Shown here one piece after another: positions 3-31,615 of a DNA stretch of 35,468 bases. Where the stretch lies: positions 3,089 to 38,556 of IMG/VR virus record IMGVR_UViG_3300030380_005651. The stretch is one strand, 5' to 3'. The position numbers and the translations under genes were made by a program. Source of the stretch: a virus. Position 1 is the stretch's first letter; the number at the start of each line of letters is the position of its first letter. Below the pieces are notes generated by a model. The model was given only the letters and a program-made list of their open reading frames with translations, was not told where the DNA came from and did not search any database.

Positions 3-740
3 GCTTCCACATTATGCACGGTTTCATCAGGGCAATCTTTTTTAACTAGTCTCATACCTACATCAGTTGGTGGAGCTACAAAAGTATTTGATGCTGACTC
101 CGGTTTAACAGATACGGCTATTAGTGGAGCATATATAGATGAAATATTTTTTAGATACACAAAAAGAGTTTTACAAACAATAGATGCTGTAACTGCACCG
201 ACAGGAACCTATTCTGCTAATAGCACAACTTGTACAGTAACTTTATCTTCGGGACATAATTTAGAAATAGGACAGAATGTATTTTTAGATTTTAAAACAT
301 ATAGTTCAGGAGTAGTTCCAAAAGATGATGTATTTGAAGTTAAAGACACAGTAAATTTCACCTCCACAACATTTGATGTAGATATACCTTCTTTAAGCGG
401 AACAATTACAGGAAACGTAGATATCTCTTTACCTACTGATTTTTGTTTTTATCTTGTAAATACAGGTACGGTAACAAACATAAATCAATTTTTCCCATTA
501 TTTGTTGCAAGTATAGATTGCAGTCAGCAAACTTACAGTTTAACTTTGAATGAAATATTACCTTTTATTAATCATCCTACTGTACAAGCTGGGTCAAACT
601 TTGGATCAGCAAATAATGAGATAGCACCAAAACAAAGAGGATTAATGTTAAAAAGAGGACAAGCATTATATGTAGCTGCAAGTGGTGCTACAGCTCTAAC
701 AAATGGATTCTATTGTAATGTTCAAGGTGGATTCTACTAA
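3..740 (+). CDS. Virion structural protein, C-terminal part (cut by window start)
   Basis: The reading frame is open from base 3 to the stop at 738-740, with no stop before the window edge, so this is the 3' end of a longer gene. It encodes about 245 residues rich in Ser, Thr, Val and Gly. Around residues 72-145 there is a beta-rich unit: TCTVTLSSGHNLEIGQNVFL, then a segment ending in FDVDIPSLSGTITGNVDI. This is the same pattern as three units in the gene at 1122-3395 and resembles the FCCH-like beta-domain of phage tail proteins. The next gene's ATG follows the stop directly, which fits co-transcription of a structural operon. A virion or tail role is inferred; the exact protein is not identified. 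Confidence 0.75.
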   Translation, partial: ASTLCTVSSGQSFLTSLIPTSVGGATKVFDADSGLTDTAISGAYIDEIFFRYTKRVLQTIDAVTAPTGTYSANSTTCTVTLSSGHNLEIGQNVFLDFKTYSSGVVPKDDVFEVKDTVNFTSTTFDVDIPSLSGTITGNVDISLPTDFCFYLVNTGTVTNINQFFPLFVASIDCSQQTYSLTLNEILPFINHPTVQAGSNFGSANNEIAPKQRGLMLKRGQALYVAASGATALTNGFYCNVQGGFY

Positions 741-1118
741 ATGGAGAATAAATTTAGAGAGATAGCATCTTCTAACCAAGGTTTCCCTATCTTTAATCAA
801 TTTTTAGATGAGACAGGTGCTAAAGATACTGCAATAGATTTTGCAAAAAATTTTATAAAAGATAAGTTTAATAAAAAAGAAAATAATACAAATGAAATAC
901 AAAATAATATGGATCAAAATAGTAACACCATAACAAAAACTCAAAACCTTTTAAATAAAATTAATCAAATAGGATTGTCAGCAGATCTTTCAGGTGTAGG
1001 AATTGAAAAGACATTTGGCGACAAAAATCAAGGAATAAATACAACTGTTTTTGGTAGGCAGGATTTCGGAAAACCTACACAGTATGGTGCAAAATTAGGG
1101 TTTAATTATAAGTTTTAA
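741..1118 (+). CDS. Hypothetical protein, probable virion component
   Basis: It encodes 125 residues and I do not recognise the family. The N-terminal half is charged and helical. Residues 45-70 are an Asn/Gln/Thr-rich low-complexity stretch. The C-terminal 45 residues alternate polar and hydrophobic positions and end in GFNYKF, like a terminal beta-strand. There is no signal peptide and no membrane segment. The ATG follows the preceding stop without a gap, and the next gene starts four bases after this stop, so it sits inside a tightly packed virion operon. Function is unknown; a small structural or assembly protein is the likeliest reading from context. Confidence 0.7.
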   Translation: MENKFREIASSNQGFPIFNQFLDETGAKDTAIDFAKNFIKDKFNKKENNTNEIQNNMDQNSNTITKTQNLLNKINQIGLSADLSGVGIEKTFGDKNQGINTTVFGRQDFGKPTQYGAKLGFNYKF

Positions 1119-1121
1119 ATT

Positions 1122-3395
1122 ATGGCATTCGAAATAAAAGGTTTCGGTGAGCCATCAAAGTTTAACTTTAAAAGTTTTGAGAATTTTAATAATAAACCAA
1201 AAAAACCAAATATTTATCCAAGAGGATCTGATGGTTATCAATTAGAAAGTGAAGTAAAATTTTATAATCAGGATTCTTTATGGACTAGGTGGAGAAGAGG
1301 ATATGAATTGTATGTAATGATGCAGACATTATTAGGATCTACTTCGAAAGAAAGAGATAGAAGAGGAGACTATAGATTATTTTTTACTTTTCAACAATTT
1401 CCTGGAGTATTTATTCCTGCAAGAATTTTTACTTTTCCTTCTAAAAATAAAGAATTAGGTGAACATGTTTGTGGAATGAGAGATACAGATGGATTTAGTT
1501 TTTACAATTTTGGTTTACCAATACTTGCAGTTAGATACTTAGCCCCATCAGTAGATGCAACTTATCAACAAACAGGAACTACTTTAGTTGTGAGTAAAAC
1601 TGATCATGGGTTATTCCCAGGAGATGATGTTTTTTTAGATATTTCTACTGGAACTGCGATTGATGAGACATTAGAAATTGTTAGTAAAACTCAAAATACA
1701 TTTACTGTTACAGCAACAAATTCATTAACAACTTCAGGAAATGTAACTTATCATAATTCAACAGCGTTTACTGATACTAGATGGAGATTTGTAAGAGTTA
1801 AATTAAGAACTTTGCCAACAGAAGTAGCTTTTCTTTCTGGAGAGAGAATGGCTGATCGAATAATTGAAAAAGATCCCGGTATTACTTCTACCTACACCAG
1901 ATCAGGTTCTACAGTTACCATCACTTGTAGTTCAGTTCATGGTTTATCAACAGGTAATAAAGTGTTCCTAGATGTAAGCACAGGAAATGTAAGTTCTGGA
2001 AGATACACAATTGAAGTTACATCAACCACTCAATTTAAAGTCACTACAATAACTAGCGGATCTACTTCGGGAAACCTCACCTTAAGTAGATTGCTAAGAG
2101 GTTTTAGATATGACGATTATGTAGGGTATACCGTAACTGGATCTGATGTTAATACGAATGAGATAATTTTCCAAAAAAAGGATAGTTATGGAGCAAGAAC
2201 TATTGATACGGTAGCAAAAACAACTGTCCCAGCTCATAGAGGTTTTGCAGTAGGAAGATTTCTAACCACAGAATTAAGATGGAATTGTTCTTGTCAGGAT
2301 TTCTCTAGAAGAGATTCTTATGATTTATTTAAAAGATCTACTGATTCAAGATTTCCGGTAACTCCAATTAGAGATACAAAACCAGGAAATGTGCTACAAC
2401 CAGATGGAACTCTTAGTGATGAAAGAGACATTCCTGGTACGTTTAGAGATTTAGGTTATGTAACTATTAATAATTTTTATGAATTACCAGAATATGAAGA
2501 TAAAAAAGAAGATTCTTTTCAAAATTTACAATATTATCAACTTCGTTGGTGTAAACATATTTATGCAGCAATGTGGTCACTTGTTCATGATGAAGGTAAT
2601 GAGCCACTAAAATTAGCAGCAAAATATTCTCAATCCGGAGTAAATATAATTGTTGATTTTGAAAATCATAATTTAAATAAAAATGATAAAATTCAATTAA
2701 ATTTTACAAGTGGTAATGCAATTTCAGGAGAGTACACAATAAGTGATGTTCCAAATCCAAATAGTTTTGTAGTTATATACCCTTTTGATGAGACTACAAG
2801 TGGTTATGTGACAGTAGAAAATTTAAAAAAACATGAGTATGTAGGAGCTTGGTTATTAGAACCTAATGACAAACCTATAGGTCAAGGTCTTGAAGCATGG
2901 GAAAGAAATTGGAAAAAAGAACAAGAGAAGCTTAGAGAATCTGCAGAGATATTTGCTTTATATAATCGATCAACAAAATGGGAAGGTAATAAAGAAATTA
3001 TTGGTAATTTTAATAATAAACAAAATGTAGCTAATTTTGATCCATCCGTTGTGGCAATGACTTTGACAGATAGTTTAAAAAGAGATGCAAAAGGAGGATT
3101 GGACAGATCAGGACAATCTTTAAATACTACAAATAGAATGATTGCAATGGTAAATAAATTATTTAATAAGTCTCCAACAGTTTTAGATGATATAAAATTT
3201 GGGATAATAAATAAACCTCTAATTGAATTTACAGATATTTTTGAATCTGGTTTGATTAATGCAGGCGATTATATAAATGGAGAACTAGTAGATTCTGCAA
3301 TAAATACTAGCAATCTTGATGCCAGTACATATAATCCAGATACTGATCAAGATACAGTAGTAGATGCAGGATTATATATAAATGTAGAGGCTTAA
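1122..3395 (+). CDS. Large virion structural protein with FCCH-like repeats and a SWIM-type zinc motif
   Basis: It encodes 757 residues. Three copies of a beta-rich unit of about 60 residues lie near 152-212, 262-322 and 506-567. Their shared pattern is HGL, then G, then VFLD, then TG, a central F-x-V strand and TSGNVT; this resembles the FCCH-like domain common in phage tail proteins. Cys389 and Cys391 (NCSCQDFSRR) with Cys477 and His479 (RWCKHIYAA) give the CxC...CxH ligand set of SWIM zinc fingers, with an unusually long 85-residue insertion. The C-terminal 180 residues are helical and charged. Its size, position and repeats suggest a baseplate or tail protein. The zinc site and virion role are inferred. 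Confidence 0.8.
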   Translation: MAFEIKGFGEPSKFNFKSFENFNNKPKKPNIYPRGSDGYQLESEVKFYNQDSLWTRWRRGYELYVMMQTLLGSTSKERDRRGDYRLFFTFQQFPGVFIPARIFTFPSKNKELGEHVCGMRDTDGFSFYNFGLPILAVRYLAPSVDATYQQTGTTLVVSKTDHGLFPGDDVFLDISTGTAIDETLEIVSKTQNTFTVTATNSLTTSGNVTYHNSTAFTDTRWRFVRVKLRTLPTEVAFLSGERMADRIIEKDPGITSTYTRSGSTVTITCSSVHGLSTGNKVFLDVSTGNVSSGRYTIEVTSTTQFKVTTITSGSTSGNLTLSRLLRGFRYDDYVGYTVTGSDVNTNEIIFQKKDSYGARTIDTVAKTTVPAHRGFAVGRFLTTELRWNCSCQDFSRRDSYDLFKRSTDSRFPVTPIRDTKPGNVLQPDGTLSDERDIPGTFRDLGYVTINNFYELPEYEDKKEDSFQNLQYYQLRWCKHIYAAMWSLVHDEGNEPLKLAAKYSQSGVNIIVDFENHNLNKNDKIQLNFTSGNAISGEYTISDVPNPNSFVVIYPFDETTSGYVTVENLKKHEYVGAWLLEPNDKPIGQGLEAWERNWKKEQEKLRESAEIFALYNRSTKWEGNKEIIGNFNNKQNVANFDPSVVAMTLTDSLKRDAKGGLDRSGQSLNTTNRMIAMVNKLFNKSPTVLDDIKFGIINKPLIEFTDIFESGLINAGDYINGELVDSAINTSNLDASTYNPDTDQDTVVDAGLYINVEA

Positions 3396-3397
3396 TT

Positions 3398-3832
3398 ATG
3401 GCAGTACAAATTCAAACACGAAGATCAAGCACACTTAATGATAGGCCATTTCCTATAAGATTAGGAGAAGGAGAACTTGCTTTAAATAATAACAATGTAA
3501 GCCCAGGTTTATTTTTTGCCGATAATGTATCTTCACCAAGCACTGGATTAATAAAGGTAGGACCTGTACATATTGGTAATACCGCACCAAATAGTTCTGC
3601 TGCTGGATTTACATCATCAAGTAAAGGTGAGACTTGGTTAGACACAGTAAGTACCCATATATTTAAAGTATTTGATGGATCATCATTTCAACCTGTAAAA
3701 GCTGTAGCTTCTGTATCTGCTGGTCAACCTGCTAACCCAATTGATGGACAATTACATTGGGATACGTCTGGTGGTGGTAGTGGTGTGCTAAAGATATATC
3801 TAGCATCTAGTTCTGCTTGGGTTAATGTTTAA
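3398..3832 (+). CDS. Short tail-fibre or attachment protein with MTD-like N-terminus
   Basis: It encodes 144 residues. The start (VQIQTRRSSTLNDRPFP, then GEGELALNNN, then LFFAD) matches the short beta-structured N-terminal module found on phage tropism determinants and fibres, where IQ-x-RR is followed by a GE-E-A turn. A second half (GETWLDTVSTHIFKVFDGSS; QLHWDTSG) looks like two copies of the W-D strand motif seen in fibre or adhesin stalks. No enzymatic motif is present. It starts three bases after the previous gene. Its stop codon overlaps the stop of the opposite-strand gene at 3829-4074. Attachment of a fibre or decoration of the tail tip is inferred. Confidence 0.75.
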   Translation: MAVQIQTRRSSTLNDRPFPIRLGEGELALNNNNVSPGLFFADNVSSPSTGLIKVGPVHIGNTAPNSSAAGFTSSSKGETWLDTVSTHIFKVFDGSSFQPVKAVASVSAGQPANPIDGQLHWDTSGGGSGVLKIYLASSSAWVNV

Positions 3833-7766: not shown

Positions 7767-9839
7767 ATGCCATATATAGGAAATACTATTCGTGCTGCTG
7801 ACGATTATAGATTAATTGATGACATAAGCAGTGGATTCAACGGCAGCACCACAAGTTTTGCATTACAAGTTGCTGGTTCAGCTCCAGTTCCTTTTCCAAA
7901 ATCACCTCAACAGGTTTTAATATCAGTAAACGGAGTTATTCAAGAACCTGATCCTACTGGAGCTTCAGGATTTAATTTAGTTGGTACAAATATAGTTTTT
8001 AGTTCTGCTCCTACAAATGGGCATGCATTTTTTGGAATAATATATGCGACTGCTGATTACCTAAATGCAGGTGGTAACTTCCCTGCAGGTAGTTTGGGTG
8101 CTCCATCTATCACGTTCATAGGGGATGAAAATAGTGGTCTATTTAGAAAAAGCGGTGGTAGTGTAGGTTTTGTTTCTGATGCTACTGAGATAGCTAATTT
8201 TGATAGTAATGGAATAACTATTTCCTCTGGTAATTTAATTATTCCTGACAGTATTATTCATAATGGAGATGCAAATACAAAGATACGATTTCCAGCTGTT
8301 GATACAGTAACGATAGAAACTGCTGGTAGTGAGAGACTAAGAGTTGATTCGTCTGGAAATGTAGGTATAGGTACAACAGGTCCAGCACGTAATTTGGAAG
8401 TTAAAGGTGCATCAGGTGATCCAGTTCATTTTAAATTAGAAGGAGATCCAGCTGACTATGCACGTATAATGTTTGCTGATGGCACTGACGATAATATTGG
8501 TGAGATACGTTATAACTTTGGTAGCGATTTTATGTCGTTCACTGCAAATGCAACAGAGCGTATGCGTATAGATTCGTCTGGAAGAGTTGGTATAGGTACA
8601 ACAAGTCCAGGTTCATATAACGGTGGTTTTGATAATTTCGTTATAAGAGGATCTGGTAATACTGGACTGACTATAAGCACTGATGATAATAGCTTCGGAC
8701 AAATCTGTTTTAGTAATGCTGAAGATGCTCATGTCTCAGGAGCTATACAATATCGTAACAGTGATAACATCCTTGAATTAAGGGCAGGTGAGTCTAATGG
8801 AGCAGTAATTTTTTCTACAGTTTCCAATACAGAACGCATGCGTATAGATTCGTCTGGAAACGTAGGTATTGGAATTACAGATCCAGATCAAAAAGTTGAA
8901 GTGGCAGGTGTTGTCGCTGGAAATGATTTAATGGTTGGTCGAACAGCAAATAGATTTCCAATTATACAAAGGCACACTGTATCTGCAGGAAGTCAAAGTT
9001 TGACTATTACAGCAGGGGCAGGGTTAACAACTAACTCTACCTCAGCACCAACCCTTAATGATGCTTTAAATGGTGCTGCGATACAAATAGTAGGTGGTAA
9101 TCCAACAAGTGATGTTTTTGGTGGTGGTATTAGATATTATGCAAATGGTCATACAAGTCCTAATAACCCAGGCACTGGAAATCAACACGTTTTTTATAGA
9201 AGGTCAGCAGCAAATACTTTTACTGAAGCAGTAAGAATAACACATACTGGTCACTTTAAAGCTTCAACTGAAGGTAACTATGTAGATATTACTGGAAATT
9301 ATCATGAAAGTTTCACTAATACAAATAATCAACATATTCACTGGTTTCAGCATAGTGGTAGTACGCAAGCACAACAATTTGGTATAAGAGTCCGGACAGG
9401 TGATGATGGTAATGACTCAAATGCTTTAATACAAGCTTCAAGTGGTAGTGCAACTGCTGGTTTAATTTTACGAAATGGCTCTTTCCAAAGTCGTAATAAT
9501 TCTTTTGGTGGAATATCTGACATAAAATTAAAAGAAAATATTGTTGATGCAAAATCTCAATGGGATGACATAAAAGCAATAAAATTTAGAAATTTTAATT
9601 TTAAAGATAATCCAACACAAAAAATGTTAGGTGTTGTTGCACAAGAAATTGAACTTGTTTCTGCTGGTTTAGTTGAAGATATTCCAGATAGAGATCCAGA
9701 TACAAATGAAGATTTAGGCACTGTTACAAAACATGTAAAAAGTTCTATTCTTTATATGAAAGCAATGAAGTGTTTACAGGAAGCTATGGCAAAAATAGAG
9801 GTGTTAGAAACAGAAGTTGCAGCATTAAAAGCAGCTTAA
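7767..9839 (+). CDS. Tail fibre with C-terminal S74 endosialidase-type chaperone
   Basis: It encodes 690 residues. The N-terminus (YIGNTIRAADDYRLIDDIS, then FNGSTTSFALQVAG) is a cyanophage fibre attachment module shared with the gene at 10256. The middle has three RMRIDSSGNVGIG-type repeats (about 190-205, 268-280 and 358-372) that precede fibre domains. The last 107 residues start with SDIKLKENI, the signature of the intramolecular chaperone (peptidase S74); Ser584 is the expected self-cleavage residue. A short coiled coil closes the protein. The chaperone should drive trimer folding and then cleave itself off. The assignment rests on a strong motif, while receptor specificity is unknown. 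Confidence 0.9.
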   Translation: MPYIGNTIRAADDYRLIDDISSGFNGSTTSFALQVAGSAPVPFPKSPQQVLISVNGVIQEPDPTGASGFNLVGTNIVFSSAPTNGHAFFGIIYATADYLNAGGNFPAGSLGAPSITFIGDENSGLFRKSGGSVGFVSDATEIANFDSNGITISSGNLIIPDSIIHNGDANTKIRFPAVDTVTIETAGSERLRVDSSGNVGIGTTGPARNLEVKGASGDPVHFKLEGDPADYARIMFADGTDDNIGEIRYNFGSDFMSFTANATERMRIDSSGRVGIGTTSPGSYNGGFDNFVIRGSGNTGLTISTDDNSFGQICFSNAEDAHVSGAIQYRNSDNILELRAGESNGAVIFSTVSNTERMRIDSSGNVGIGITDPDQKVEVAGVVAGNDLMVGRTANRFPIIQRHTVSAGSQSLTITAGAGLTTNSTSAPTLNDALNGAAIQIVGGNPTSDVFGGGIRYYANGHTSPNNPGTGNQHVFYRRSAANTFTEAVRITHTGHFKASTEGNYVDITGNYHESFTNTNNQHIHWFQHSGSTQAQQFGIRVRTGDDGNDSNALIQASSGSATAGLILRNGSFQSRNNSFGGISDIKLKENIVDAKSQWDDIKAIKFRNFNFKDNPTQKMLGVVAQEIELVSAGLVEDIPDRDPDTNEDLGTVTKHVKSSILYMKAMKCLQEAMAKIEVLETEVAALKAA

Positions 9840-17128: not shown

Positions 17129-17923
17129 TTAAATAAGACTCCAACTTCTCCACCATTTAGTAATTATATATTTATCTCCACTAATAGGTGGTAAAGCCTC
17201 ATGAAGCGTTTTAAAATTTGGAATTCCGTTAAAAAATAAGTTATTCCAAGCAATTAATAAGCCTTTTTTTGGTTTTATCTTTAAATTAAGATGTTTGAAA
17301 TAAGTTTCTCCCCCATCTTCAACATCATTTAGATATATCATTGTTGTCCAAGTTCTCTGACCCATCCATTCACAATAAGTTTTGTATTCAGCTGTAAATG
17401 GAGTAAAGAAATCATGATGTTCTTTGTAATATTCTCCTATTGCATATTTTTGACCTTGCATATTTTCCCCAATAAACGGATTTAAATTTAATAAATTTAC
17501 TAATTTTTTATCAATATTTAAAAAAAATTCATCTTCAAAGTATCCTAAACTTGCCGATTGACTTGTTCTGTAATCATTCACAAGGCAGGAATCATTTGGA
17601 TCTGCAACTGTAGATGCTGTTAGTCGAGAATCTATAAAAGTAATCATATCAGTGCATTCGTTGTCTGTTAGAAAATTTTCGTGTTTATATACTTGAGTAA
17701 ATGGATATTTAATTCTTTCACATTGAGTAGTTAATCTATTTTTATAAAAATCTAAATAATTAATTTTTTTTGGTTTTTTCTTAAAAGAACAAACTTTAAA
17801 CAAATATTTAATATCTTCATCATTTAATTTATATGTATTTTTAAATTCACGTATCACTTGCGTTTTACTAGCACCACTTAAGGCACATTCCATAAATCTT
17901 TCTATTATGTAATCGTTTTTCAC
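17129..17923 (-). CDS. 2-oxoglutarate/Fe(II) oxygenase of the prolyl 4-hydroxylase type
   Basis: It encodes 264 residues with a GTG start. The double-stranded beta-helix region starts after about residue 75. The iron ligands are H169-x-D171 (KEHHDFF) and His241 (TLHEAL), with Lys251 in GDKYIITKWWRS as the expected 2-oxoglutarate carboxylate ligand, ten residues later. The segment TTMIYLNDVEDGGETYF is typical of the P4H family. The N-terminal 70 residues form a separate helical domain. Such enzymes hydroxylate protein side chains or other substrates and are common in cyanophages, but the substrate is unknown. It is divergent from the small membrane gene at 17971. Confidence 0.88.
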   Translation of the reverse strand: MKNDYIIERFMECALSGASKTQVIREFKNTYKLNDEDIKYLFKVCSFKKKPKKINYLDFYKNRLTTQCERIKYPFTQVYKHENFLTDNECTDMITFIDSRLTASTVADPNDSCLVNDYRTSQSASLGYFEDEFFLNIDKKLVNLLNLNPFIGENMQGQKYAIGEYYKEHHDFFTPFTAEYKTYCEWMGQRTWTTMIYLNDVEDGGETYFKHLNLKIKPKKGLLIAWNNLFFNGIPNFKTLHEALPPISGDKYIITKWWRSWSLI

Positions 17924-25403: not shown

Positions 25404-27260
25404 ATGTCTCAGACTAAGGCTCAATTAATTGATCCAGTAGATGGAACAATAGTAAATGCAGATATAAATGATAGTGCAGCAATAGCTGGAACAAAAATAT
25501 CTCCTGATTTTGGATCGCAAAATATAACTACAACTGGATCTTTAGGTGCTAGTGGCTTTAGCACTACTGGAGGGGAAATTTCTTTAACTGGAACAGTTCC
25601 AAGAATTGGTTTTACAGATTCAAATGCGAATAGTGATTTCAGACTCAAGGTTGATGGTGGTTCTTTTCAAATAGAAGATATTACTAATAGTAGTGCTGAT
25701 AGATTAGTAATAAATTCATCTGGCAACGTAGGTATAGGCACATCAAGTCCAATTGCAAAATTCGATGTTACAGATGGTACAACAAGTATTTCTTTTAATA
25801 AGACAAACAATACACCACGAATTGATTTTAAAGGTAATAATGTTTCAGATTTATGCCAAATAAAAGCAGCAGAATCTAGTGGGGGAGGAATTTTTCAATT
25901 TCTTACAAAAACTACTGGTGGCACTGCTACAGAACGCATGCGTATAGATTCGTCTGGATCTGTAAATATTGGATCTACTGGTTATGCAGGGGGTGGTGTT
26001 AATCCAATACTTTATTTAAGAAGCACTAGTGGAAGACAAATGAAAATTCATAATACTGCTAGCTCTACTTGTGGAATACAGCTTTCAAATAATACAACAG
26101 GTGAGGGAGAAGATGCTGGATTCCAACTTGCAGTTTTAAGTACTGGTGATGGGTTTATAAATAATCCTCATTCTAAAGCAATAATATTTAATACTGCCAA
26201 TACAGAACGTATGCGTATAGATTCGTCTGGAAAAATAGGTATTGGTAGAACTGATCCAGTTAACTTTGTTGACATACATCGTGGTGCGGATGAAGATAAT
26301 ATTTTAATAGTTCGTGGTCAAGATACAAGTGGTGAATATTGTGCATTAGGTGTAAATGGAAGTAATGCAATCGTTACTGCTGGAGGTGTAAGCGGTAATA
26401 ACACTAATTTAGTTTTTAGAACTGCACCTAATGGTAACGAAACAGAACGTATGCGTATAGACTCGTCTGGAAGGGTGCTTATAGGTACAACTTCTGTTGG
26501 AGCACATGAAGGAGGAAATAATTTTACGATTGCAGAAAGTGGACATTGTGGAATGACAATACGATCAAGTACATCTACAAGTGGAAATATTTATTTTGCC
26601 GATGGTACAAGCTCAGGTGAATCAGCTAGAGGAGAAATAAGTTACAGACACGCCACAGATGATTTAAGAATTTTTACCGCAGCAACAGAACGTATGCGTA
26701 TCAATAGTACTGGTGATATTTTTATAGCAACTACTACAACAAACCCTGGTTTTGGTAATAATTCTGACCCAGGACATTATATAAACCATGTGGGTTATGT
26801 AATGCACTCAAGGGATAATGGTACTGCATTATATGTCGCAAGAAATGATAGTACAGGTTCATTAGTTTCATTTAACTATAATGGTGGTGGTCAAATAGCA
26901 GATATTACAACAAACGGTTCTAGTGTTTCTTATGGTACTGGTTCTGATTACAGGCTTAAGGAAAATATAACTACTTTAACAAATGCAATAACAAGATTAA
27001 AAAATTTAAAACCTTCAAGATTTAATTTTTTAACAACTCCATCATTAACACAAGATGGATTTATTGCACATGAAGTACAGGAAGTCGTACCAGAAGCAGT
27101 TACAGGAGTAAAAGATGAAGTACGTACAGAAGATGGTGATATGGGACAGAAAAAGGGAGATCCAGTCATGCAAAGCTTAGATGTTGCAAAACTTGTTCCC
27201 TTACTTACTGCTGCTGTACAGGAACTAATTACAAAAGTTGAAACTTTAGAATCTGCTTAG
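25404..27260 (+). CDS. Second S74-chaperone tail fibre
   Basis: It encodes 618 residues. A short head (DPVDGTIVNADINDSAAIAG, then TKISPDFGSQNITTTGSLGA) shares the ISPDFGSQ module with the gene at 10256. The body has five units near 106, 180, 275, 350 and 432, most with TERMRIDSSG-(N/K/R)-x-x-IG, spaced by variable fibre domains. The last 105 residues begin SDYRLKENI, the S74 chaperone signature, with Ser514 as the expected cleavage residue. It ends in a short coiled coil. It should fold as a trimer and release the chaperone. The 20-base core of its repeats is identical in DNA to that of the 8-11 kb fibres. Confidence 0.9.
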   Translation: MSQTKAQLIDPVDGTIVNADINDSAAIAGTKISPDFGSQNITTTGSLGASGFSTTGGEISLTGTVPRIGFTDSNANSDFRLKVDGGSFQIEDITNSSADRLVINSSGNVGIGTSSPIAKFDVTDGTTSISFNKTNNTPRIDFKGNNVSDLCQIKAAESSGGGIFQFLTKTTGGTATERMRIDSSGSVNIGSTGYAGGGVNPILYLRSTSGRQMKIHNTASSTCGIQLSNNTTGEGEDAGFQLAVLSTGDGFINNPHSKAIIFNTANTERMRIDSSGKIGIGRTDPVNFVDIHRGADEDNILIVRGQDTSGEYCALGVNGSNAIVTAGGVSGNNTNLVFRTAPNGNETERMRIDSSGRVLIGTTSVGAHEGGNNFTIAESGHCGMTIRSSTSTSGNIYFADGTSSGESARGEISYRHATDDLRIFTAATERMRINSTGDIFIATTTTNPGFGNNSDPGHYINHVGYVMHSRDNGTALYVARNDSTGSLVSFNYNGGGQIADITTNGSSVSYGTGSDYRLKENITTLTNAITRLKNLKPSRFNFLTTPSLTQDGFIAHEVQEVVPEAVTGVKDEVRTEDGDMGQKKGDPVMQSLDVAKLVPLLTAAVQELITKVETLESA

Positions 27261-29044: not shown

Positions 29045-31615
29045 TTACTGTGATTGTCTTTCTGGGAGTATAGTTACTGAGGATTTAAATTTTTCGTCAG
29101 AATTTCTTATTGCCAATCCTTTTATAAATGGTCTTCCTTTTTTACTAAAGCTAATTATTTCTTTCATTCCCAACTGATTTTTACAACAATCTAATAAAAG
29201 GGCTATAAATCTTTTCTGACCTACTGGCTTAGAACCTGTATCTTCACAATATGAACAATATGAGGCATAAAGATGAAAATTACTATTTACATATCTTTCC
29301 TTAGAATCTTTAGCAGCTGGGATTTTTTTACCCACAGCGGATACTGACTCTGGTGAATGAACTACTTCAGACTGTAGCCATTCAACTAAATTATTACTAG
29401 TTAAAAGAATACTATTTCTTACAGCTTTTAAATGATCAACTTTTTCATAAGTATCAAGTAAATATTCTCTCATTTCTTTAGTTTCCATTTGTAAGACCCA
29501 ATTAACTAATCCTGGTAAATAAGACTTCCATAACCCCTTTACCTCGCCATTTTCAAGTTTTATCATCTCTACTGCTTCAGAATTTTTATCCCAAAGTGGC
29601 CTGTTAAATTCAACAGTTAATCTTCTTCTTGTAAGACCAGAGGTATTATCAGTCGTTTGTATTGGCTCATTGGCACAAACCATAACCATTCCTGTATATA
29701 CAAAAGGCTCTCCAACATTTTTATTTTTTTCTTCGAATCTTAAATTATCTCCTCCTGTTAAAGCTTTGAATATTTGTGCAGATCCTCCATATCTTTCTGA
29801 GTCATTAATCAAAGTAAGTCTTTTACCTTTGATAGAAGCAATTTCAAAACGACTTTGCTCTAATTGATTTAATGTTGTAGATGCATAATTACCATTACCA
29901 ATTAAAGCACAACATAAATTAGCGAAGGTTGATTTACCTCTACCACCAGGGCCAATAACTTCCAAGAATCGTTGTAATTCATGGCCTTTCCCTACTAAAC
30001 ATGCTTTTAACCATGCTCTTAATACTTGTACTCTTTCCTCATCATTGTATTGAGTTTTCCTTAACCATTGAATTATAGGTCCTGATTCAGCGTTAGGATC
30101 ATACTCAAAATCTAAACCCCAAGTTAGATAATTTTCTTGGTCATGTGGGAGAAACTCTGATGTGCTCATTTCTAAGACACCATTACGAAAAGCTAATTTG
30201 TCAGGATCATCATTCCAATAAGGTTGAGTAATATAAGCTTTTGTTAAATTTGTTACATCAGATAAAAGATGAGATGTAAAGCCACCTGGGGTTGGTATAC
30301 TTTCTCTTAAAAATAAATCCTGAACAAAATGTTTATATTCATCTTTATATTCTTCTCTTCGCCATGTTCCCTTTTTAGATTGGTAAAACATAAATGTATC
30401 ATATTTAGGATCATATCTCCAACCACATTCAATAACCATTCCTGTAACCATTTCAGCTAATTCCGAAGCCGGTGCAGTTTTAGGTCTTCCTTTGTTGCTA
30501 ATTTTTTCTTTTATATTTAATTTTTCTTTCTTTGTAGGTTCGCCTATTAACTCGGTTAATACTTGATTTACAAATGGCATGGGTAATTCAGCATTATCTT
30601 GTTGAAATGCTTTTTTAGCCTTTTCTGCTAATACATCTGCCGATTCAACAACAAAGCCTCCTACGTCTATATATCCGTCTTCTTTTGCCATAGCTCGAAG
30701 ATGATGTAAACCACAACGATTTTCTGGGGCAGGACCACCTTCTACGACTTCAAATGTATCCCATTTCTTTTCACATACCCCATCTTGAAAATTCTCTGCT
30801 TGTTTTGACCAATCAATCCAATCACCAAGTAAAGCCTCATCTACTTGTTTAAGACTCATACCTACCTTTAACCAGTCATCATAATCAGCCGATCTTTCAG
30901 GATTTAAATGATCTAGATAAATTTTTGCTTCATTAACATATTCTTCTTGCTGATATTCCGATCCTTCCTCATAATCTAAATTTACTTGCTGGGTTACAAT
31001 ACCTGATTTTACTGGTTTTTTATATTTATTTAAAGGATATGCCTTAGCTATTGCATCGTATAACCACTCAGGCATTTCTGGAGGATTTTTTGCAAATTCA
31101 AATCCACCATGTTGAGTTGTAAAATAACCTTCTGTATCTGGATGACTACCCATTATTGCACCTTGTCTAGATCTAAATAAGATTTCAAAACAAGGAATAC
31201 CTATTTTTATCGTTGCTTTATCAGGTAATAAATTTAATTTTGCAGCTGGTACACTGAAAAGCATTCTCTGCCTATCTGGTTTTCCAGATGAAATAGTAAG
31301 GGTTGGTGGAAAAGCACCCGATATAGGAGCTCCTGCAAGCTCTTCAAGGTCTTTTATCGCATCTGTGCCATCTATATCTACCCAAACTAAACCACCGCTG
31401 TTTGACCATACACCTGTAATTAATCCAATCCCTGTTGCCTTTCCCTGATCAAACTCACGTTTTATCTCTTCTATTGAATATGGTTGAGTAGTCCACCCAG
31501 CTACATATGCCCTTTTACCTTGTAATGGAGTAAGAGCCCAATCTTTAGGGATTAAATCAAAATTAATCTCTCCGGGTTTTAAATGATTATTTGGTTCTGG
31601 TGATGCAGTTGGCAT
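29045..31615 (-). CDS. Prim-Pol / SF3 helicase fusion (phage D5-like primase)
   Basis: It encodes 856 residues. The N-terminal primase-polymerase domain (about 25-190) has VDIDG with D80-x-D82, then SSGKPDRQRMLF (109-120), a GKP-x-R-x-Q variant also known in cyanobacterial relatives, and FEILFRSRQGAIM. A PriCT-like segment follows near 225-290 (YDDWLKVGMSL; WIDWSKQA). The helicase has Walker A GPGGRGKST (555-563), LTLINDSE as Walker B (600-607), a sensor MVMVCANEPI (643-652) and Arg finger candidates at 663-665. This is a primase-helicase for phage DNA replication and differs in type from T4 gp41/gp61. It is the last gene of the replication operon. Confidence 0.9.
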   Translation of the reverse strand: MPTASPEPNNHLKPGEINFDLIPKDWALTPLQGKRAYVAGWTTQPYSIEEIKREFDQGKATGIGLITGVWSNSGGLVWVDIDGTDAIKDLEELAGAPISGAFPPTLTISSGKPDRQRMLFSVPAAKLNLLPDKATIKIGIPCFEILFRSRQGAIMGSHPDTEGYFTTQHGGFEFAKNPPEMPEWLYDAIAKAYPLNKYKKPVKSGIVTQQVNLDYEEGSEYQQEEYVNEAKIYLDHLNPERSADYDDWLKVGMSLKQVDEALLGDWIDWSKQAENFQDGVCEKKWDTFEVVEGGPAPENRCGLHHLRAMAKEDGYIDVGGFVVESADVLAEKAKKAFQQDNAELPMPFVNQVLTELIGEPTKKEKLNIKEKISNKGRPKTAPASELAEMVTGMVIECGWRYDPKYDTFMFYQSKKGTWRREEYKDEYKHFVQDLFLRESIPTPGGFTSHLLSDVTNLTKAYITQPYWNDDPDKLAFRNGVLEMSTSEFLPHDQENYLTWGLDFEYDPNAESGPIIQWLRKTQYNDEERVQVLRAWLKACLVGKGHELQRFLEVIGPGGRGKSTFANLCCALIGNGNYASTTLNQLEQSRFEIASIKGKRLTLINDSERYGGSAQIFKALTGGDNLRFEEKNKNVGEPFVYTGMVMVCANEPIQTTDNTSGLTRRRLTVEFNRPLWDKNSEAVEMIKLENGEVKGLWKSYLPGLVNWVLQMETKEMREYLLDTYEKVDHLKAVRNSILLTSNNLVEWLQSEVVHSPESVSAVGKKIPAAKDSKERYVNSNFHLYASYCSYCEDTGSKPVGQKRFIALLLDCCKNQLGMKEIISFSKKGRPFIKGLAIRNSDEKFKSSVTILPERQSQ

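Follow-up and report, generated by a model that had tools for sequence, protein, structure and literature searches.

The SWIM zinc finger, said to have been described by Makarova et al. in 2002, is a compact domain in which a CxC and a CxH pair are joined by a short linker, with a β-hairpin before the first pair and an α-helix after the second. In ZSWIM8, a SWIM domain that has been solved is described as the central organizer of its fold (PMC13083262). A viral protein with a putative SWIM-like motif is also on record, the 8K protein of Potato mop-top virus; however, its motif has the form CxCxnCxC, the protein is short and comes from a plant RNA virus, and it is not related to the protein described here (PMC6638219). 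The homologue from a named virus is AHV82237.1 of cyanophage S-EIVl, a 527-aa protein annotated as hypothetical, with no zinc annotation. S-EIV1 itself is described as a cyanopodovirus forming its own lineage (PMC8557907).

Here we analyzed a window of 35,468 nucleotides, positions 3089-38556 of the 38,556-base viral record IMGVR_UViG_3300030380_005651. An earlier note, made from the letters of this stretch, had proposed SWIM-type zinc ligands within one of its proteins.

Results

ORF 1122..3395 on the plus strand encodes a 757-aa protein, probably of the tail region of the S-EIV1 lineage, in which four residues form a CxC-x85-CxH arrangement. The first predicted ligand pair, recognized by motif and alignment as is the second, consists of C389 (2286-2288) and C391 (2292-2294), and the second of C477 (2550-2552) and H479 (2556-2558), all on the plus strand. 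Rechecking the ORF and the DNA showed that the coordinates and residues of the earlier note, two pairs 85 residues apart in a 757-residue protein, were correct. The pairs are flanked as in SWIM domains (C[ST]C and CKH..A). Between them, the linker (2295..2549, plus strand) carries conserved FPxT and RDxPGxFRDxG blocks and has low pLDDT values. AlphaFold2 predicts a β-hairpin leading into the CxC pair, with strands at residues 379-383 and 386-389 (2256..2288, plus strand), and a helix at residues 478-488, directly after C477 (2553..2585, plus strand). Far upstream, at residues 53-71 (1278..1334, plus strand), alignment and AlphaFold2 place a predicted helix with a near-invariant WxRWRRGxE block.

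Relatives were collected from IMG/VR in several scans, of which 80 were kept each time: with six peptide patterns of the window protein (107 relatives), with the S-EIVl protein (256), with a profile (at least 577), and with two outlying members (215 and 209). Scanning bacterial and archaeal genomes yielded 3 relatives, and the sets from all scans overlap. These 3, out of 37 pattern matches on genome contigs, sit on MAG contigs that were taken for phage. The family ORF was present in all 391 loci, which include several from one contig with different flanks; collapsing them gave 268 distinct stop-to-stop ORFs, near-identical ones being kept, and the window and S-EIVl bring the alignment to 270. 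A set of 65, from which ORFs under 480 aa were dropped, comprises 64 representatives with less than 90% mutual identity and the window. None of the six patterns that fetched the first 80 relatives holds a ligand, which limits fetch bias, although some later patterns did include ligand residues. Among these first 80, a regular expression found both motifs in 75; L063, L075, L076, L079, and L081, which it missed, are ORFs cut at the 5′ end, and the alignment shows the cysteines there. In the phage collection, S-EIVl was the only member bearing the core, and matches to Streptomyces phages (E 0.09-0.5) were dismissed.

All 270 distinct sequences, that of cyanophage S-EIVl included, carry C389, C391, C477, and H479 unchanged, and hence the ligand loss among homologues that the earlier note had named as grounds for refutation was not seen. 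C117 and C269, on the other hand, vary among these sequences. Within the set of 65, the window protein has 14 Cys/His columns, and only the four ligand columns are identical throughout (65/65), the other ten all being variable. Since the two main branches share only 25 to 31% identity over the protein, the invariance of the ligands reflects more than close kinship. The codons at the four positions differ synonymously (TGT/TGC and CAT/CAC), and the constraint therefore acts on the protein. The anchors are kept while the linker grows from 85 residues in the window's branch to 142-173 in the S-EIVl branch. This four-ligand pattern is beyond chance.

Against the SWIM profile (PF04434; Pfam cut-off, 19.6 bits), the full-length window protein scored 11.9 bits (E 0.17) and a contiguous 124-aa piece of the region 18.1 bits (E 0.002). 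When such pieces of the 65 diverse members were compared with Pfam, 63 matched SWIM at an E of 1 or less (best, 5.5e-4) and two had no SWIM match, while no other family was matched by more than two pieces. Ten other pieces scanned singly all matched SWIM, at 9.8 to 17.4 bits; among the scores read individually, for the window and these ten, none reached the cut-off. In L228, L233, L236, and L149 the best stretch was the CxC half, lying on profile positions 12-23, and in six of the ten it was the CxH half, on positions 25-36. The two halves thus fall on successive halves of the profile in the proper order, with an expanded spacing between them. No SWIM match was obtained with either isolated half of L163 or L231, or with the CxC half of the window by itself.

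An AlphaFold2 model of the window protein built from the 65 sequences had a mean pLDDT of 64.3; the loop stretches 393-426 and 429-471 fell below 50, whereas the hairpin (379-389) stood at 88 and 81 and the helix (478-488) at 69 and 78, by blocks. A model of an S-EIV1-type member (mean pLDDT, 58.6) had the same order of hairpin and helix. In these models of low mean confidence, C389 is predicted to end the hairpin and C477 to lie just before the helix, as in SWIM domains. The SWIM-type reading is thus upheld by the conserved ligands, the ordered profile halves, and the predicted placement of hairpin and helix. We call the site SWIM-like: ligands, flanks, and order agree with SWIM, but the scores stay below the cut-off and the short linker of a compact domain is not found in the phage family. 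The 85-residue spacing, which the earlier note had called unusual, is so when compared with ordinary SWIM domains (five CxC/CxH regular-expression matches in three bacterial control loci had linkers of 7 to 14 residues) but not within the family, where the other of the two forms is longer still.

The loop retains FPxT, PG, and RDxPGxFRDxG blocks, and F411, G422, D436, G439, and G445 are invariant in the set of 65; it is more than random filler. Its net charge is acidic (9 K+R versus 14 D+E).

Fold searches with the S-EIV1-type model against a viral library, the PDB, and VIA-align gave nothing above noise (best, a Foldseek E of 0.039 against the PDB and a Z of 5.6), and the tail chains of Mystique, Chi, Sf11, and GTA, at Z 4.7 to 4.9, lay within this noise and were not used. 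With the window model, significant matches were confined to the inserted barrels described below. No SWIM chain was among the fold matches listed, which carries no weight against the SWIM reading. A profile search of PDB sequences produced nothing meaningful (best, HflK at E 1), and a CD276 match in a single-sequence PDB search (E 0.045-0.05) was set aside, as it covers residues 259-345, mostly the second barrel.

Three copies of one β-barrel domain, 30 to 42% identical, lie at residues 142-215 (1545..1766), 249-325 (1866..2096), and 496-568 (2607..2825) on the plus strand, the first two recognized by sequence and fold match and the third by sequence comparison. A fourth copy (about 201-428) is found in the upstream neighbor, ORF 3..740 on the plus strand, the 5′ end of which lies outside the window. 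With four copies in two adjacent genes and the same kind in further structural genes of cyanophages, it looks as if the barrel were a mobile decoration domain. The folds of the first two domains (taken here as 142-215 and 250-324) resemble the endosialidase barrel of phi92 (4hiz; Z 9.5, 1.9 Å over 75) and a tail tube domain of T1 (9l0f; Z 9.0, 2.0 Å over 76). An equally good match to UBA6 (Z 9.6, 2.2 Å over 75) means that no function follows from the barrel fold. The endosialidase barrel family PF12195 matched the inserted domains at 17.7 bits (E 0.0034), below its 35-bit cut-off. Other structural genes of cyanophages, among them one for a capsid protein of P-SSP2, contain similar sequence. 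PHROG 5838, "virion structural protein," was rejected as evidence on the core, its match covering residues 152-317 only. The S-EIVl protein lacks at least the second and third domains, and the barrels are therefore additions around the presumed zinc site rather than parts of it.

In S-EIVl and its marine relatives, a portal-like gene is followed by the major head protein gene, a gene of about 270 aa, a gene with a weak ComEA-like helix-hairpin-helix (HhH) match (in the window's own record), a 135-159-aa gene, further genes, a 259-266-aa gene, and the SWIM-like gene. The portal-like protein belongs to phrog_20475, with a weak match to the portal family phrog_64, and the major head protein to phrog_1357 (E 2.8e-15 in the relative L021). 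Identities between the window's record and S-EIVl are 53% for the major head protein fragment, 44% for a 143-aa gene, 57% for a 135-aa gene, and 28% for the SWIM-like gene, and the portal of L021 is 52% identical to its S-EIVl counterpart. Because its proteins have homologues that are arranged alike in S-EIVl, the record belongs to the S-EIV1 lineage. AHV82237.1 takes the place of the SWIM-like gene and is homologous to it (27% identity over the region, E 7e-7), with the differences that it lacks barrels 2 and 3 and has a linker of 149 rather than 85 residues. The counterparts of ORF 3..740 in L021, L211, L214, L217, L221, and L231 match AHV82236.1 of S-EIVl. All ten long relatives, which had been picked as records holding the family, have the gene at one place, the match falling into two pieces in six of them. 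On the 3′ side, the neighbor at 3398..3832 has a minor-tail PHROG match, and S74-chaperone fiber genes follow further downstream. The core of the protein has no PHROG or NCBIfam match and no annotated function; one S-EIV1-type member matched PF24155 (DUF7406), below the cut-off of that family. The conserved gene order points to the connector or tail region for the SWIM-like protein. A tail or baseplate location is plausible on this order, which is also the basis on which "virion" or "structural" would apply to the protein.

Several other features of these genomes were noticed. A 125-aa ORF with no notable family match (741..1118) separates ORF 3..740 from the SWIM-like gene; in L021 this ORF is missing and the two genes adjoin directly. 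The two fiber-like genes of the window (7767-9839 and 25404-27260) each end in a C-terminal Peptidase_S74 intramolecular chaperone domain. The major head protein of S-EIVl is annotated as a 156-aa fragment only, its 5′ part being covered by an ORF called on the minus strand. At this place 389 codons are open in one frame (L239:20854-22008; KJ410740.1, about 60853-62007), and their translation shares 84% identity with the L122 head protein. A 146-aa gene between the head and tail genes, upstream of the window in its own record (L240:1273-1713), has a ComEA-like HhH match (TIGR00426, E 8e-6, under the cut-off); it is 44% identical to its S-EIVl counterpart and may encode a DNA-binding part of the particle. 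The minus strand encodes a prim-pol/D5-type primase (29045-31615) and a 2OG-Fe(II) oxygenase-like protein (17129-17923).

Discussion

The data presented here make it reasonably probable that the 757-aa protein is a tail-region virion protein of the marine S-EIV1 branch with an interrupted, structural SWIM-like zinc site. In such a protein, which would be a connector, nozzle, or fiber-base component of the tail region, one zinc ion would be held by all four ligands, C389 and C391 where the hairpin ends and C477 and H479 where the helix begins. The ion would act as a staple, pinning the hairpin to the helix and closing the base of the long, partly conserved loop, and the loop displayed in this way (85 or 142-173 residues) probably contacts a partner subunit. 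We favor a structural staple because the ligands outlast the other cysteines and histidines, the loop is acidic, and the SWIM domain of ZSWIM8 is described as organizing its surroundings. The metal is presumably zinc, and the site presumably structural rather than nucleic acid binding.

Other uses of these four residues have to be weighed. In phage lambda, gpL of the tail tip holds an iron-sulfur cluster by four cysteines. Three invariant cysteines and one invariant histidine would also serve for a Cys3His cluster site, or the cysteines might form disulfides in the finished particle, and S-EIVl-type members keep two more cysteines (position 289 in 34 of 39 rows and position 500 in 35 of 39). 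These extra cysteines, however, are missing from the window's branch, disulfides leave the invariant histidine unexplained, and the site agrees in spacing, flanks, and order with SWIM, the sole recurrent Pfam family; we therefore consider a cluster or disulfides unlikely, if worth keeping in mind.

It is also conceivable that the site binds nucleic acid and contacts the end of the genome within the head-tail channel. SWIM domains are reported to be potential binders of DNA or protein (PMC8161499), the gene lies in a connector/tail module that is also home to the ComEA-like HhH gene, and an invariant WxRWRRG block precedes the site. That block is about 330 residues away, however, the loop is net acidic, and the protein matches no DNA-binding family. 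DNA binding by the site, one of the roles offered in the earlier note, thus found no support, a structural role being more likely, and we rate an element of this kind as distinctly unlikely.

A role outside the particle, with the zinc site in a chaperone or assembly factor, would agree with the lack of a structural PHROG match for the core. Yet the gene sits within a portal-capsid-tail module and the protein carries inserted barrels resembling those of virion proteins, which leaves such a role improbable. The SWIM score of the whole protein falls short of significance (E 0.17), but a chance resemblance, in which the cysteines and the histidine share no role, can hardly account for exactly these four residues being invariant across such diverged branches and a change in linker length, or for SWIM matches in nearly all diverse members, and is discounted.

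For a structural SWIM-like zinc site, the motif class is already known, and what the literature searched does not describe is the long linker and the occurrence of the motif in a probable phage tail protein; our search, which was thin on subscription papers, found no report of a SWIM domain in a phage structural protein. The present family would add a probable phage tail protein to those with SWIM-like sites, and it suggests that a long loop can separate the two halves of such a site. The invariant predicted metal site also offers the first testable handle on a protein that has no annotated function. The lineage concerned is not rare: in one marine survey, the cluster containing S-EIV1 is given as 3.3% of cyanophage content (PMC5332604). 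As a speculation to which we attach little probability, the split SWIM might serve as a latch in which zinc closes the base of a functional loop of 85-173 residues with a conserved RDxPGxFRDxG core, and tail assembly or DNA release might include a step in which the latch is reshaped. If this were true, a widespread cyanophage lineage would depend on zinc for its infectivity.
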